From an uncultured Pirellulaceae bacterium (GTDB lineage: Bacteria; Planctomycetota; Planctomycetia; Pirellulales; Pirellulaceae), in NCBI GenBank assembly GCA_938010615.1, contig CALLUY010000093.1, forward strand, positions 1 through 64,000: 64,000 bases of DNA. Reading direction: 5' to 3'. Both the position numbers and the translations under genes were made by a program. The notes beneath the pieces are model-generated. The model searched no databases. It was not told where the DNA came from and worked only from the letters and a program-made list of their open reading frames with translations. The number at the start of each line of letters is the position of its first letter. Within the stretch, counting starts at the first letter, position 1. Shown here piece by piece: positions 305 to 54,844 of the stretch.

Positions 305-1906
305 ATGCAGGATCCAGATCCGAATCCGAACTCTTCTTCATCGACCAGTCGTTGGCTGATCTTTGCGATGGCATTCTTCTTAATATCGCTCTCGTTCCTG
401 ATCGCATCGAGACGCAACGGAGTCGACATCGACTTGTTCCATCAGATGTGTCTGGCGCGACAGTTCTCAGAAGAGGGAACGTTTCCGATGAAGGATGCTT
501 TTGCATACACGCCAACCGTCGACCCCATTGTCCATCACGAATGGGGAAACGGAGCCATTGCGTATGCAATCATTGAACAAATGGGGCTCAAATCAAACGG
601 CTTGATGGCGCTGAAATACTTTCTGGTAACCCTGATCTGTTTCGGATGCTGTTTCGCGGCGAAGCTCCGAGGTGCGACGTGGCCGATGATCGTGCCATGT
701 TTAGCATTGACGACAATCATGGGCGGACAGATTGGATACACGACCGTTCGAGCCCAACTTTTCACAATCGCGTTCCTGTCGCTTGAATTTTGCTGTTTCG
801 CGATCGACCGACAAGGAAAAAAGTGGTGGATTGTTCCCTGGCTTATTCTAGTCGTCGTCTGGGCAAATATTCACGCCGGAATTGTCGCTGGCTTGGGGAT
901 CTTTTGCTTCTACGTTCTGTTTCGAATCAGCGAGCCGTTGATCGAAAAGTATCTACCGGTCGCATCGCATGAATCAGAAAGCAAAGACTCAAGCCCGCGA
1001 AGCTCGGCTTGGTATCTGGTTGGCGTTGCCATCGCATCATTTCTTCTGCTGTTAATGAATCCCTACGGAATCAATTTACCGATCTATCTCTATCACGGAA
1101 CAACCCTAGAACGACCGCTCATCAACGAATGGCAACCATTGCTAACAGCGATCAACGACACCGGATTCCTCACATTGCTAGGCGTGTCGATCCTGTTGGC
1201 ATTGATCGGATTCAAAAACACTTGGCGGACTCGACCGTTCGAAGTTTTCATCATCGCACTAACTGCCTACCTCGCTCTCAAGCACGTTCGACATCTTTCG
1301 ATCTACGCAATCGTGTGGGGCTGCATCGTGCCCGCAAATCTAATGCATAGTTCAATCGGAAAAGAGCTCACGACGATCGGCTATCGCTTGGCCAAACCGC
1401 TCACCGTATTTGCAGCCGCTGCAGGCATCTACTGCTTGGCGATGGCGACGCAGGAGCGATTCTGGGAGATGCAAGTTCCCTCGTATTCCGAAGCAGCCCA
1501 ACCGAAAGGCATGCTCTATCCGGTCGGCGCAGTCAACTTTTTGAACGAGACTGGTTATGAAGGCAACTTAATGGTTCCCTTCAACATCGGAGCCTTCGTT
1601 TCATGGAACCTATATCCGAAAGTCAAAGTCAGTATCGACAGTCGCTACGAAGCCGCCTATCCGGAAGGATCCATCGAAACAGCACTCGACTTCTACGATG
1701 CGAAGGACGGATGGCAAAAGACGCTTGAGTCCCACGAAACAGACGCCGTCTTAATCCCAAACTTCATGCCGGTTTACGAGCGGGTCGCCAACCAAACTGA
1801 TTGGCATTTGCACTACAAAGATTCCATGTTCTCGGTTTTCACGAAACAAAAACGGGCTGGCGCCCCCGTCATCAATGATTCGACCGAATTCGATTGGGAG
1901 TTTTAG
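305..1906 (+). CDS. Multi-pass membrane protein, GT39/mannosyltransferase-like topology
   Basis: The 533-residue protein starts with a Ser/Asn-rich cytoplasmic tail (residues 1-17) and then has roughly ten hydrophobic segments up to about residue 395. A soluble C-terminal domain follows, with a conserved-looking block around SWNLYPKVKVSIDSRYEAAY. The layout (many helices, then a soluble tail) resembles lipid-linked glycosyltransferases or O-antigen-ligase-like planctomycete proteins, but no catalytic Asp motif can be asserted. The ATG at 305 is the first start after the repeat-bearing region upstream. It stands alone, 100 bp ahead of cysK on the same strand. Function is unknown; cell-envelope glycan work is a guess from topology. 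Confidence 0.75.
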   Translation: MQDPDPNPNSSSSTSRWLIFAMAFFLISLSFLIASRRNGVDIDLFHQMCLARQFSEEGTFPMKDAFAYTPTVDPIVHHEWGNGAIAYAIIEQMGLKSNGLMALKYFLVTLICFGCCFAAKLRGATWPMIVPCLALTTIMGGQIGYTTVRAQLFTIAFLSLEFCCFAIDRQGKKWWIVPWLILVVVWANIHAGIVAGLGIFCFYVLFRISEPLIEKYLPVASHESESKDSSPRSSAWYLVGVAIASFLLLLMNPYGINLPIYLYHGTTLERPLINEWQPLLTAINDTGFLTLLGVSILLALIGFKNTWRTRPFEVFIIALTAYLALKHVRHLSIYAIVWGCIVPANLMHSSIGKELTTIGYRLAKPLTVFAAAAGIYCLAMATQERFWEMQVPSYSEAAQPKGMLYPVGAVNFLNETGYEGNLMVPFNIGAFVSWNLYPKVKVSIDSRYEAAYPEGSIETALDFYDAKDGWQKTLESHETDAVLIPNFMPVYERVANQTDWHLHYKDSMFSVFTKQKRAGAPVINDSTEFDWEF

Positions 1907-2006
1907 AAACTCCGTGTTCGCCGCGTGCTCTATGCCAGTGTGTTTCTAAACGCAGCATCCTGTATATTGTTGGCGTCCCAATCTCAACAAATTTCTGCGC
2001 GAAACC

Positions 2007-2948
2007 ATGACACAGATCTACGAAGACATCACTGACTGCATCGGCAAAACTCCACTCGTTCGATTGCGCCGCGTCACCGAAGGTTGCGTTGCGAACGTGA
2101 TTGCCAAAGTCGAAAACATGAATCCATTGTGGAGTGTGAAAGACCGAATCGGCCGCGCGATGATTGATGCCGCAGAACGCGATGGCCTAATCAAAGAAGA
2201 TACAACCATCATCGAGCCAACCAGTGGCAACACAGGCATTGCACTGGCCTACGTTTGCGCAGCGCGAGGATACAAACTGCAAGTCACGATGCCGGACAGC
2301 ATGTCGATCGAGCGACGTCGTTTGCTGACAGCGCTCGGTGCTGAAGTCATCCTGACTCCCGGCGCCGAAGGAATGCCCGGCGCGATCCGGAAAGCCACCG
2401 AACTTTCTGAACAAGATGGCTACTTCATGCCGCAACAGTTCAACAATCCGGCCAACCCGGAAATCCACCGTCAGACGACGGCTCTTGAAATCTGGGACGA
2501 TTGCGGCGGCGAGATCGACATCTTTGTCGCCGGCGTTGGAACGGGCGGAACAATTACTGGCTGCAGCGAAGTTCTGAAAGAGAAAAACCCAAACCTTAAA
2601 TCAATCGCCGTTGAGCCCGTCACCAGCCCGGTCATTACTCAGCGCAAATCGGGCGATCAATTGATGCCCGGTAAGCACACGATTCAGGGCATCGGCGCCG
2701 GATTCATTCCGGGGATTTTGAACGTGGACATCATCGACGAAGTTTATCGCGTCAAAGACGACGACGCCGTTCAGATGGCTCGTGATCTTTCAACGAAGGA
2801 AGGTCTCTTCTGCGGGATCAGTTGCGGCGCCGCCGCTTCGGCCGCCATCGAAATCGCCAAACGACCAGAGAACGAAGGCAAGACGATCATCGTGATTCTT
2901 CCAGACCTTGGTGAACGTTATCTGTCGACAAGTTTGTATCCTTCGTAG
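2007..2948 (+). CDS. cysK: Cysteine synthase A (O-acetylserine sulfhydrylase)
   Basis: This PLP-dependent enzyme makes cysteine from O-acetylserine and sulfide in the cytoplasm. The 313-residue length is usual for the family. The PLP lysine is K45 in SVKDR. The substrate loop TSGNTG is at 72-77 and the phosphate-binding loop GVGTGGT at 176-182. The C-terminal GISCGAA segment carries the serine that binds the pyridine nitrogen. The C-terminus ends in a Tyr-Pro-Ser tail instead of the Ile expected for docking to serine acetyltransferase. It is probably a single-gene unit; the next gene starts 55 bp after the stop. Confidence 0.95.
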
Positions 2949-50620: not shown

Positions 50621-50655
50621 ATGCCGCCGAGCCAATGGTTCGGTGGCATTTTTCG
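50621..50655 (+). terminator. Rho-independent terminator
   Basis: A 13-bp stem (50621-50633 with 50637-50649, two or three wobble pairs) with a 3-nt loop is followed by TTTTT. It lies downstream of the permease, and the hairpin also sits at the end of the opposing selenoprotein gene. Confidence 0.8.
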
Positions 50656-50663
50656 TTGACGAC

Positions 50664-51698
50664 TTAGCGACGCCTTCTTCGACTTGGACGCAATTCTTCT
50701 GCAGACAGTTCACCGTCTCCATTCTTGTCCAACGAAATCAACGTTTCTGATGCCGCTTCGATTTCACTTGCCGACAACTGCATGTCGCCATCTTTATCCA
50801 TCGCCGTGAAAGCTGGCATGCGGCTCAACATACGAGCAGCCCTATCGTCTCCCGATGGTCTTTCACCACGACCTTGCGCTGCAGATCGCGGCTTGGGTGA
50901 TTTGCCGCCAAGTTCATCCTCGATCGCGTCCGCAAGTTCATCCGGACTGAATCCTCGTGGACCCTTGTCGCCAGCGTACGCAATTTTGCCGTCTTTACCA
51001 ACAAGATAAATTCGATCGGGAAGCGACGCGTAGTCTTTCGATGCTTTGTTGTCGATATTGTCTAGCAGTGCAGGAATTTCCAAACCCATCTCATCAAGAA
51101 ACTTTTGGGCGACGTCACGTCGTTCTTCTGTCGTCACGGGCTGTTCGACATCTTTTCCGGCAGGTCTGTCGCTGTCGGCAGCGTGAGCTTCGCTGGTGTA
51201 GACAATGAAGAACTGAACTTTATCAGCGTACTTTGCTTGCATCTCTTTCAGTTGACCAACTGAACGTACGAAAGGCGGTCAAGTGCAGCTTCCGAATATC
51301 AATGCAACGGGTTGCTTGTCAGTAAAACTCGAAAGGGTAACTGTTTTGTTTTTGTCTCTGATTTCAGTCAGCGAAAAATCTGGAGCAGCATCACCAGCTT
51401 GCGGCGCGTCGCCGGAACCACCTCGGCGTCTGGATCCTGATTCCCAGTCCTTTTTTGAAAGCACGCCGTCGCCGTTTTTGTCCAGACTTTTGAGTCCCTC
51501 CTCGCCTCGCGTGTACTCCTCGGCAGTCACAGTGCCATCTTTGTCGGCGTCATATTTATTGGCGACGAATTCCCAGCCGCTGCCGCCTCGACCACCACCA
51601 CGATTTCGCTGAGCACTCACGTCATCGACCGGCACATGGATCGCAAAAACGATAGCCGCAGCAAGAAAAACCAGCCAACATCGGGAAGAAGAATTCAT
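50664..51698 (-). CDS. Iodothyronine deiodinase-like selenoprotein with EF-hands
   Basis: With UGA at 51279-51281 read as selenocysteine, the protein has 344 residues and Sec140. A signal peptide (about 1-30, ending VSAQ) is followed by two EF-hand loops (DADKDGTVTAEEY; DKNGDGVLSKKDW) and then a thioredoxin-fold domain. This carries LIFGSCT-U-PPF, IVYTSEAHAAD and LPDRIYLVGKDGKIAYAGDKGP, the hallmarks of the deiodinase family including the EAHA motif. Two more EF-hands (MDKDGDMQLSASEI; DKNGDGELSAEEL) end it. An AAAGGA box precedes the ATG at 51698. It is probably a secreted or periplasmic calcium-binding redox enzyme; halogen removal is inference. Confidence 0.92.
51247..51281 (-). promoter_or_regulatory. 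Bacterial SECIS element (deiodinase-like gene)
   Basis: On the minus strand, 14 nt after the UGA, TTCAGTT pairs perfectly with AACTGAA around the loop GGTC (stem arms 51258-51264 and 51247-51253, loop 51254-51257). The loop GGUC is the one bound by SelB in E. coli formate dehydrogenase mRNA, and the UGA-to-loop distance of 21 nt fits bacterial SECIS rules. Confidence 0.9.
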
Positions 51699-51791
51699 CG
51701 TTTGTCCTTTGAATGGAGAATACACACAGTATTAACCACGTGACGATCTCGAAGTGGCGACACATTTTCTTGATTTATTTGCGACGGAACG

Positions 51792-54179
51792 CTAACCAGA
51801 ACTCTCACGCAACAGGCGTTCAAACTTGTCTTTCAACTCTGAATCCTCCCAACCGGGCGGTACAGCTTTGATGTACTTCAACATCTTCGTGGCCTCGGCG
51901 CTCTTTCCGGATTCGTGCAACAACTTCGCGACGTTGTATTTTGCTTCGAACCAAGCAGGAGTTTGCTGTTTCGTTCGCGAACCGATTGATCGCCACAACT
52001 TCAAGGCACTTTCACCTTTGGAAACTCTTGCCATGCCAAGCAACACGGTCAGGTTCTTTGAATCAGATGCCATTAGCTGTTGAAAGATCGCCTGAGCTTC
52101 AATCTCCTTACCGAGCTCCGCCAACGCCGATGCGCGGGCCAGCAAAAACTGGTTCTTTTGCCTTTGGTCCTTCGTTTTTGTGATCGCATTGTCAGCAATC
52201 GCCAGCTTGGTTTCGCTAACTTGTTTGGATTCATCCATGCGATCCAACAATCGCAAAAGTTGAGCAACCACTCTGCCATCAAACGGCGCTGCATTGGCTT
52301 TGCTGATCCTCAGAGCCTTTTCCTTGCTTTGGCCAAGAAACGCCAACAAGTATTGGAATTCAGCATTGGATTCAGCCGTCTGCAAATCGGCAGACTCGTT
52401 CATTCGATCAGCAGACATTTTTTTGTCCTCGGCTCGCCAAGCCAAACAGAGTTCAGCCATGGCGACGGCAACAAGTGGCTTGCCGCTGTCAGAACAGTTC
52501 GAATACATATCCGCCCAACTCTGTAGCAATTGCCTCGCCAACGATCGAGTCGCCAAATCTTGCTTCTCTTGTACCGCCAGTTGCCTGCGCGCGGCAGACC
52601 GAGCCAACCGTACCGACGCGGGAAATAATGTGCTTTGGGTTTGGGTTTTCATCAGCGTCTGGAAAGCAGATTTGTAATCCCTGCGACCAGACTGCAGTGA
52701 AGCTACCCAATATCGCGCTTGGCTGGACGTTTCAGATTCTGGCCACTGCTTGAAGTGGACTGTCGATTCGATTTCGAACTGGTCAGATTTAGCCTTCGAA
52801 AGATTCCAACAACCTCGCAAATGAATCGAGGCAGCAAGTTCCTCATTTGGGTACGCCTTGCCAGGCTTCAAAAGCGCCGCCGCAGCTTCGTCATGTTTAC
52901 TTTGCTTCTCAAGCGCCATCGCCGCTCGAACGGTGGTCGTCAAACCGGCCGCACAATCACCGGCAGAGAATTGCGATTCGGCTACAGAAAGATAGCCACG
53001 TGCCGCCGCGTCGAGGTCACCATTCTTTTCCGCTTTGTCGGCAGCCTCGAGCAGCATTCGAAGTCCGGCTGAATCGACGGTCGCAGTTCTCGCAGGTGCT
53101 GCAGCCCGCGAACCGGAAAGCAAGGCAATATCGGCTCGTCGAGCCCAATACGCGCCGTGACGATCCGAGACATCGCTTGCAAGCCTGGAAGCTTTCTCAA
53201 TTTGTCCAGCGGCAACGAACAGCTGAATCAATGCGACTTCGGTTTCCGCATCGTATCGTGACTTACTCGCTCGATCGGCAACGCTTTTCATTCGCTTGAC
53301 GTCGCCGCTGGCGATCGCCAACGCGGCTTCTTCTTGCAACAACATTCCATCAGTCGACTTTGGACGCTTCTTGGTTCGCAACGTTTTCAATATTTGATCC
53401 GCCGCCTCGTTTTCACCCAACATTCGTCGACAGGAGGCCTCATTGATCCAAGTCTTCCACCATAATGGTCGCGATTCGGAAACGGCAGCGCGAACAGCGG
53501 TCAGCTGCGTGAGCACGCGACCCAATGAATCGATTCGATTCAGAGTTTCAGATTCTGAACTGGTGTCCGTTAGCTCGGCACTGGTCAAGTTCACGACCGC
53601 CAATTGATAGTCGAGATTCGTCCCGAGCGTTCGCAATTGATCGCTGGATAGCATGTGTGGCGAAAGATTTTGGTTGGCTTGTGCCTTCACGGTGTCGAGT
53701 CGCAGTTGACGAGTTCGATTCAATATCGTTCGAGCAGACAAGAGCTGTTCCAATCCAAGTTCACGACCGTTTGGAACTGAACCATTCGCAGCAACTTCTT
53801 GCTGTAACAATTTTGCAAATGATAGATGAGCCAACGCTTGCTGCAGCCCAACCAAAATCGTTCGCGGGTTTTTCGGATGGGTGGTCGAAAACTGTTCTGC
53901 GATTTGATCGACTTGTTTCCATTGCTGCTCGCGATCGGAACCTGTTCGCGATTTCGAAGTTTGCACTCGAATGCGTTCGATCGCAATCGAGGCATGATCG
54001 GTTGGAGTGAGTCCTTCACGGGTCAGCAATTTCAGGCAGTGAGATTCAGCCAAATCGAAAAGGGCTCTGTCTCGTAGTCCGCCGACAAGTTTTTTTTCGC
54101 GCTGATTGAAGACGGCTTCTTGAGCACAGCACTGAGATACCATGAAACTGGCGAAAGCCAATACAAGCCCGAAGCGCAT
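51792..54179 (-). CDS. Secreted TPR-type protein
   Basis: The 795-residue protein has a signal peptide (about 1-22, ending CCAQ) and then an almost entirely helical, repeat-rich body with many TPR-like pairs (ARASALAELGKEIEAQAIFQQL, AKYNVAKLLHESGKSAEATKML). The ATG at 54179 is used because the upstream open frame runs through the palindromic repeat. It is the last gene of the ExbB/ExbD operon. It is presumed to be periplasmic and to scaffold the proton-motive-force-driven machine. Confidence 0.82.
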   Translation of the reverse strand: MRFGLVLAFASFMVSQCCAQEAVFNQREKKLVGGLRDRALFDLAESHCLKLLTREGLTPTDHASIAIERIRVQTSKSRTGSDREQQWKQVDQIAEQFSTTHPKNPRTILVGLQQALAHLSFAKLLQQEVAANGSVPNGRELGLEQLLSARTILNRTRQLRLDTVKAQANQNLSPHMLSSDQLRTLGTNLDYQLAVVNLTSAELTDTSSESETLNRIDSLGRVLTQLTAVRAAVSESRPLWWKTWINEASCRRMLGENEAADQILKTLRTKKRPKSTDGMLLQEEAALAIASGDVKRMKSVADRASKSRYDAETEVALIQLFVAAGQIEKASRLASDVSDRHGAYWARRADIALLSGSRAAAPARTATVDSAGLRMLLEAADKAEKNGDLDAAARGYLSVAESQFSAGDCAAGLTTTVRAAMALEKQSKHDEAAAALLKPGKAYPNEELAASIHLRGCWNLSKAKSDQFEIESTVHFKQWPESETSSQARYWVASLQSGRRDYKSAFQTLMKTQTQSTLFPASVRLARSAARRQLAVQEKQDLATRSLARQLLQSWADMYSNCSDSGKPLVAVAMAELCLAWRAEDKKMSADRMNESADLQTAESNAEFQYLLAFLGQSKEKALRISKANAAPFDGRVVAQLLRLLDRMDESKQVSETKLAIADNAITKTKDQRQKNQFLLARASALAELGKEIEAQAIFQQLMASDSKNLTVLLGMARVSKGESALKLWRSIGSRTKQQTPAWFEAKYNVAKLLHESGKSAEATKMLKYIKAVPPGWEDSELKDKFERLLRESSG

Positions 54180-54214
54180 TAACAAAACACGTGAAAATTG
54201 AAAAATGCGAAGCG

Positions 54215-54378
54215 TTGCAATACAAGCCCGACGCGCAAGCGAGGGACCGGGAAATCCTCGGAAATATTCCCTCGCTTGCGCGTCGGGCTTGTATTTGCGC
54301 AACATCAAAAAGCGCAAGCGAGTGAATCGCCGAACCCTAACGCGATTCACTCGCTTGCGCTTCGGGCTTGTATTGCGA
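54215..54378. repeat. Complete palindromic element, GCAAGCGAG family
   Basis: There are two nested parts. A 25-bp arm containing ACAAGCCCGACGCGCAAGCG (54220-54244) faces its reverse complement at 54270-54294. Then agcgcaagcgagtgaatcgc faces gcgattcactcgcttgcgct, with a ggcttgtattgc tail. It has the same core as 138-172 and 4960-5034. It sits between a TPR gene and an exbD gene of one operon. Confidence 0.88.
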
Positions 54379-54382
54379 TCAC

Positions 54383-54844
54383 TCATTTCCCACCCGACAC
54401 GGCAAACTGAACTTTCGCAAAACCGCTCAATTTCGCGGCGTCCCACGCGTTCACGATATGCTCAAGCGGAACTTCCTGATCGGGATACAGAATCACAGGA
54501 GCATCCGTACTGATATCCGCGATCGTGGTTAGCTGTTGTTTCACGGCGGCCAAATCAGCGAGTGGCTGATCGCTGACAAACCAGCGAGGCGAACCCTCTT
54601 CGACTTTGATGCGAATCACCAAGTTATCCAGATCCGCCGGCTCGGGAACGTCCACTTGCTCAAGCGGATCATCCGCACCAGCGGCTTGTGAAAGCTGGCT
54701 GGGCATGACTTGCTCAACGACTGCGAAACTGGCGGTCCATACGAAAAACACCAACAGCAGAAACACAACGTCGATCATTGGCGTCATCGCGGAATCGATA
54801 TCCGTCGCGGGACCGGTTTGAACATATTGCGATGGCTTCTTCAT
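54383..54844 (-). CDS. ExbD/TolR-type biopolymer transport protein
   Basis: The 153-residue protein has one N-terminal helix with the conserved Asp (AMTPMIDVVFLLLVFF) and a periplasmic domain ending AKLSGFAKVQFAVSGG. It is a proton-channel partner of ExbB. It overlaps the preceding exbD gene by four bases, showing coupling. Confidence 0.9.
   Translation of the reverse strand: MKKPSQYVQTGPATDIDSAMTPMIDVVFLLLVFFVWTASFAVVEQVMPSQLSQAAGADDPLEQVDVPEPADLDNLVIRIKVEEGSPRWFVSDQPLADLAAVKQQLTTIADISTDAPVILYPDQEVPLEHIVNAWDAAKLSGFAKVQFAVSGGK

Follow-up and report, generated by a model that had tools for sequence, protein, structure and literature searches.

A planctomycete gene for a probably exported deiodinase-like protein with EF-hands and a predicted in-frame selenocysteine

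We analysed a stretch of planctomycete DNA of 64,000 nucleotides (the window) and conclude that a gene on its minus strand almost certainly encodes a selenoprotein, in which an in-frame UGA would be decoded as selenocysteine (Sec) in a SelB-dependent manner with the help of a SECIS element inside the gene. In the predicted product, a thioredoxin fold of the deiodinase/peroxiredoxin-like kind is combined with four EF-hand loops in two pairs, and we lean, with some reserve, towards reading this protein as a calcium-linked selenol redox enzyme that is exported and acts like a peroxidase. The features of the gene and of its coding signals are as follows.

50664..51698, minus strand: selenoprotein gene of 344 codons plus the stop codon, one of the 344 being a UGA predicted to be read as Sec
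51705..51710, minus strand: Shine-Dalgarno-like AAAGGA upstream of the ATG (sequence AAAGGACAAACG-ATG)
51612..51698, minus strand: probable signal peptide, residues 1-29 (MNSSSRCWLVFLAAAIVFAIHVPVDDVSA), judged by eye, with a helix at residues 7-20 in the model
51279..51281, minus strand: in-frame UGA (Sec140) in FGSCT-U-PPF
51247..51264, minus strand: SECIS apical hairpin, UUCAGUU-GGUC-AACUGAA

An earlier note on this DNA had placed a deiodinase-like selenoprotein at 50664-51698; the coordinates are right, and the strand is the minus strand (51698 to 50664), the plus strand being interrupted by stops. Translation from the ATG at 51698 gave 344 residues and met only one in-frame TGA, at codon 140 (51281-51279), and the reading frame stays open for 204 codons beyond it. 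As had been claimed, this TGA lies within FGSCT-U-PPF, and the comparison then made with the active site of vertebrate deiodinases holds in that the motif is identical to that of Dio3. A same-genus orthologue, 70% identical over 343 residues, likewise contains one TGA. The N-terminal hydrophobic stretch ends in VSA-Q and resembles a signal peptide by eye only, so the signal peptide proposed before is retained as probable, and the selenoprotein is probably exported. We also note a strong terminator-like hairpin (13 pairs, then TTTTC) at 50621-50649 on the plus strand, between a convergent permease-like gene and the selenoprotein gene.

Among 89 aligned bacterial homologues, the position of codon 140 is UGA in 66, a cysteine codon (TGC or TGT) in 23 and anything else in none; these counts are not frequencies, because some of the Cys loci were chosen for the absence of a stop. 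A homologue was present in 95 of the 392 genomes of the phylum Planctomycetota that were searched, which makes the family common there, and in 70 of 241 genomes of the family to which the host belongs. Past the UGA, comparison with the 70%-identical orthologue gave a dN of 0.113 and a dS of 1.456 over 125 codons, indicating purifying selection. The host genome contains selB (349.8 bits), selA (552), tRNA-Sec (65.9) and selD (262.6), all above cut-off, and ARAGORN assigned the anticodon TCA (UCA) to the tRNA-Sec. The earlier note would have given up the selenoprotein if the genome had lacked selB and tRNA-Sec, or if homologues had an ordinary stop with no conservation after it; the full set of genes is there, and homologues are conserved past the UGA. 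Of 50 genomes, 30 with Sec forms and 20 with Cys forms, selA scored above cut-off in 28 and 4, respectively (Fisher 1.2e-7, genome kinship not corrected for).

The SECIS hairpin described before is confirmed: seven base pairs with a GGUC loop begin exactly 14 nt past the UGA (51264-51247), in keeping with SelB-type elements, in which a stem-loop closely follows the UGA and its small apical loop contains a G. Folding of 41-54 nt around and after the UGA gave a minimum with another structure than the hairpin and was not significant, and the hairpin folded in isolation had an energy of -5.6 kcal/mol (z = -2.3). Because local folding was not significant, thermodynamic folding alone was rejected as evidence, and the proof of the SECIS element is comparative, by covariation and synonymous recoding. 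Across 38 sequences, the 7-bp helix was formed in 96.2% of pair cells (slid controls, at most 51%), and there were 34 double-changed cells versus 8.8 in shuffles. The mean hairpin energy in Sec forms was -8.05 kcal/mol versus -2.45 for synonymous recodings; in Cys forms, where the hairpin is largely missing, it was -1.44 versus -1.10 kcal/mol. An Rfam search of the region returned no match at a meaningful score. The homologues show two SECIS registers; at L066, L084, L093, L095, L098 and other loci, the hairpin lies 10-12 nt past the TGA, about 4 nt closer than in the rest, with an AGGUU-type loop.

A true stop at the UGA, a scar of a pseudogene or an error of sequencing, any of which would leave a truncated EF-hand protein, has in its favour the non-significant local fold, whose energy minimum lacks the SECIS hairpin. 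We regard this as scarcely credible, since UGA occurs at the same codon in 66 homologues with Cys in the remainder, the SECIS element covaries, the downstream part is under purifying selection and the Sec machinery is complete; the UGA homologues and the purifying selection led us to rule out a pseudogene or sequencing error.

The features of the protein are listed below.

50919..51401, minus strand: deiodinase/thioredoxin-fold domain, residues 100-260
51285..51287, minus strand: Cys138, the proximal cysteine of C-T-U, equivalent to Dio1 Cys124 and Dio3 Cys168, proposed resolving thiol
51180..51191, minus strand: EAHA, residues 170-173, with Glu170 = Dio3 Glu200 and His172 = Dio3 His202
51516..51551, minus strand: EF-hand loop 1, residues 50-61, DADKDGTVTAEE (Pfam EF-hand_1)
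51447..51482, minus strand: EF-hand loop 2, residues 73-84, DKNGDGVLSKKD (Pfam EF-hand_1)
50763..50798, minus strand: EF-hand loop 3, residues 301-312, DKDGDMQLSASE, of the C-terminal pair, seen in the window's own genus only
50694..50729, minus strand: EF-hand loop 4, residues 324-335, DKNGDGELSAEE, of the C-terminal pair

The search that the earlier note had recommended, of the joined protein against the T4-deiodinase family, gave a match of 98 bits (Pfam PF00837, gathering cut-off 27, E 6.8e-28), and we have very little doubt that the protein belongs to the deiodinase-like superfamily. Residues 95-259 also align to the C-terminal half of the NCBIfam model NF038285 (deiodinase_rel) at 186.3 bits, below the curated equivalog cut-off of 250 bits; a related protein at L120 passes with 282 bits. 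The nucleophile and the Glu and His of the EAH motif that mark the superfamily are present as U140, E170 and H172, the EAHA motif lying downstream of the UGA as the earlier note had it. In Dio3 numbering, the position of Sec170 (Sec or Cys), Glu200, His202, Arg225, Asp244 and Arg260 do not vary among the 89 homologues, nor does Tyr167 of the window protein (Dio3 Tyr197). Two relatives are of note in their own right. A second, divergent deiodinase-like gene with an in-frame TGA occurs in the window's own genome (L002, positions 1435-2040, minus strand, genome G000, contig C162; T4_deiodinase E 9.3e-12); it reads GSYT-U-PPI, has EPH in place of EAH and has a strong hairpin past the TGA. The Sec-form protein at L070 (1348-2340) bears a C-terminal PDZ domain.

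The AlphaFold2 model (mean pLDDT 85) has its best PDB matches in mouse Dio2 (9h48) and Dio3 (4tr3), with ResA/DsbE-type thioredoxins and 1-Cys peroxiredoxins next in rank. That ResA and DsbE/CcmG structures rank directly behind the deiodinases, together with a ResA profile match (E 3.4e-6) and the probable signal peptide, would suit an extracytoplasmic disulfide/thiol oxidoreductase akin to ResA, DsbE and CcmG, with proteins and not small oxidants as its substrates. We consider this improbable: the protein has neither CxxC nor UxxC, with PPF following Sec, the deiodinase profile is far stronger, and the conserved Glu-Ala-His and Arg set fits Dio.

Dio3 simulations indicate that the omega-loop is anchored by Glu200 and its conformation driven by Trp207, and that His219 is structural and maintains the pocket (PMC7506546). 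The omega-loop AHxxDGW with Trp207 and the structural His219 of Dio1-3 are not found in the window protein, which has AHAADSD and Pro187 at these places; Pro also occupies the His219 position in 55 of 66 Sec homologues. Cys239 is absent as well, Glu259 is replaced by Asp and Arg275 by Lys. These roles and losses suggest that the catalytic centre is retained and parts of the hormone-binding apparatus are not. A thyroid-hormone-type deiodinase is thus very unlikely, and we give more weight to a peroxidase-like or general thiol-redox role. Of the secreted, calcium-linked redox or dehalogenating enzyme proposed earlier for iodine-rich habitats, Sec, SECIS, EF-hands and probable export have stood. 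Thyroid-type specificity is weakened, as Trp207, His219 and Cys239 are not conserved, and nothing in the sequence points to iodine.

All four EF-hand loops reported before were recovered, as four stretches matching Pfam EF-hand_1, and they are of the DxDxDG type, loop 3 (DKDGDMQLSASE) having Met where Gly is usual; when the protein sequence was shuffled, it held a mean of 0.07 loops. By motif, 54 of the 66 Sec forms and 22 of the 23 Cys forms have loops ahead of the enzyme domain. Loops behind it were seen in 9 proteins, all from the window's own genus, so that the C-terminal pair looks genus-specific.

In the peroxidase-like role that we favour, the EF-hands of the exported protein would serve as extracytoplasmic calcium sites that stabilise the enzyme or keep it in place. 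The selenolate of Sec140, aided by Glu170 and His172, would reduce a small oxidant, either a peroxide or an activated halogen; the oxidised selenium may then be resolved by the neighbouring Cys138 as an Se-S bond, which an external thiol would reduce. Cys138 is the sole cysteine of the mature protein and therefore the natural candidate for the resolving thiol, by analogy with DIO1, in which the proximal Cys forms a selenenyl-sulfide required for reduction by GSH (PMC9141512). In the tree, the window protein falls in a 13-row clade with support of 100/100 and a proximal Cys (C-T/S-U). The proximal position is Tyr, not Cys, in most Sec homologues, so resolution through Cys138 would be lineage-specific.

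Several relatives are associated with a two-repeat AhpD/CMD-like region (C-x-Y-C-M-G-H-C-E-M), either fused to the deiodinase-like protein (L101, L105, L110, L116, L118) or encoded close by (L096, L102, L109, L111, L113), all of them Cys forms. With the AhpD-like query, 16 of 21 genomes with Cys forms gave a match at genome level, several of the 16 being short and weak, and none of the 30 genomes picked for Sec forms did. None of the 66 sampled Sec loci had a partner, but the strict rule that AhpD-like partners occur with Cys forms only was rejected on a counter-example: contig C95 of genome G377 (L120, 1503-3367) carries what looks like a pair of Sec genes, in which an in-frame TGA occurs both in the deiodinase-like member (GSFT-U-GPF) and in the AhpD-like gene that comes after it (CFY-U-MGHC); at a paralogous locus of that genome (L123), both genes have Cys. 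A further AhpD-like gene with an in-frame TGA (CFY-U-MGHS) was seen at L121 (3912-5081, G445 C434), where the DNA retrieved gave no deiodinase-like match.

Among solved structures, the partner comes closest to AhpD and the debrominase Bmp8, both weak matches. A search of the window's genome (84% complete, no positive control) turned up no AhpD-like partner, so this evidence bears on the relatives; the fusions and neighbours support a peroxide/thiol role for the family, which is a testable idea, and are no proof for the window gene. We tentatively raise the possibility that planctomycete deiodinase-like and AhpD-like proteins form a two-part redox module whose nucleophiles switch between Sec and Cys together, the window lineage being partner-free and having the proximal Cys instead. 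A literature search for a deiodinase/AhpD pairing, with little coverage of subscription journals, gave only selenoproteome papers of a general kind in which both families are listed.

The Bmp8 match also bears on whether the window protein could be a reductive dehalogenase of small halogenated organics, not of thyroid hormone, that uses the Dio mechanism of selenolate attack on the halogen. The motif identical to that of Dio3, the Glu/His/Tyr/Arg set and Dio2 and Dio3 as nearest solved folds are all consistent with this, and in the fused partner of one relative, one of the CMD repeats gives a weak match to Bmp8 (E 9.8e-4); however, that repeat lacks CxxC and matches AhpD about equally, Trp207, His219 and Cys239 are missing, Arg275 is replaced by Lys, and no dehalogenation gene was found among the neighbouring genes scanned. 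We therefore judge a dehalogenase unlikely, if still a serious candidate.

Among the surroundings of the gene, a conserved operon with the upstream TPR/ExbD/ExbD/TolQ genes was considered and rejected; the arrangement was seen only in the window and its closest relative, G500 (L119), and had no match in the flanks of the other relatives (about 1.5 kb each), so it was not used as functional evidence. A repeat at 54180-54420 is dispersed, matching the genome at 115 places, and lies over N-terminal codons of the open reading frame at 51792-54446; the real start of this frame is therefore probably to be sought further downstream.

The window selenoprotein is not new in kind, because bacterial deiodinase-like selenoproteins and an EF-hand fusion have already been published. 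Deiodinase-like proteins with Sec or Cys and a bacterial SECIS element were described in 2005 by Zhang et al., who doubted a thyroid-hormone role and proposed a redox function (PMC1088965), and a 2026 review still calls the functions of these families largely unknown (PMC13188914). Twenty years on, the present case links one such protein to a host group, and it is relevant to the question of how a thyroid-hormone deiodinase could have arisen from an ancestral redox enzyme. With the proteins of 2005 and of the 2008 GOS survey (PMC1088965, PMC2398784), it has in common the PF00837 domain, the Sec/Cys pair and the SECIS element after the UGA; those were metagenome sequences with unnamed hosts, whereas here a planctomycete genome supplies the Sec genes, the orthologues are full-length and the SECIS element is quantified. 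A deiodinase-like selenoprotein fused to an EF-hand was reported in 2021 (PMC9402790, Fig. 2B) and has the identical domain combination; the window protein differs in that its enzyme domain is flanked by an EF-hand pair on either side, the C-terminal pair having been seen in nine own-genus members only. With Dio1-3 (4tr3, 9h48), it shares the fold, Sec in FGS-[C/A]-T-U-PPF, Glu200, His202, Tyr197, Arg225, Asp244 and Arg260, and its proximal Cys is as in Dio1 and Dio3; it differs from them in the loss of Trp207, His219 and Cys239, in the changes of Glu259 to Asp and Arg275 to Lys, in the added EF-hands and in its probable export.
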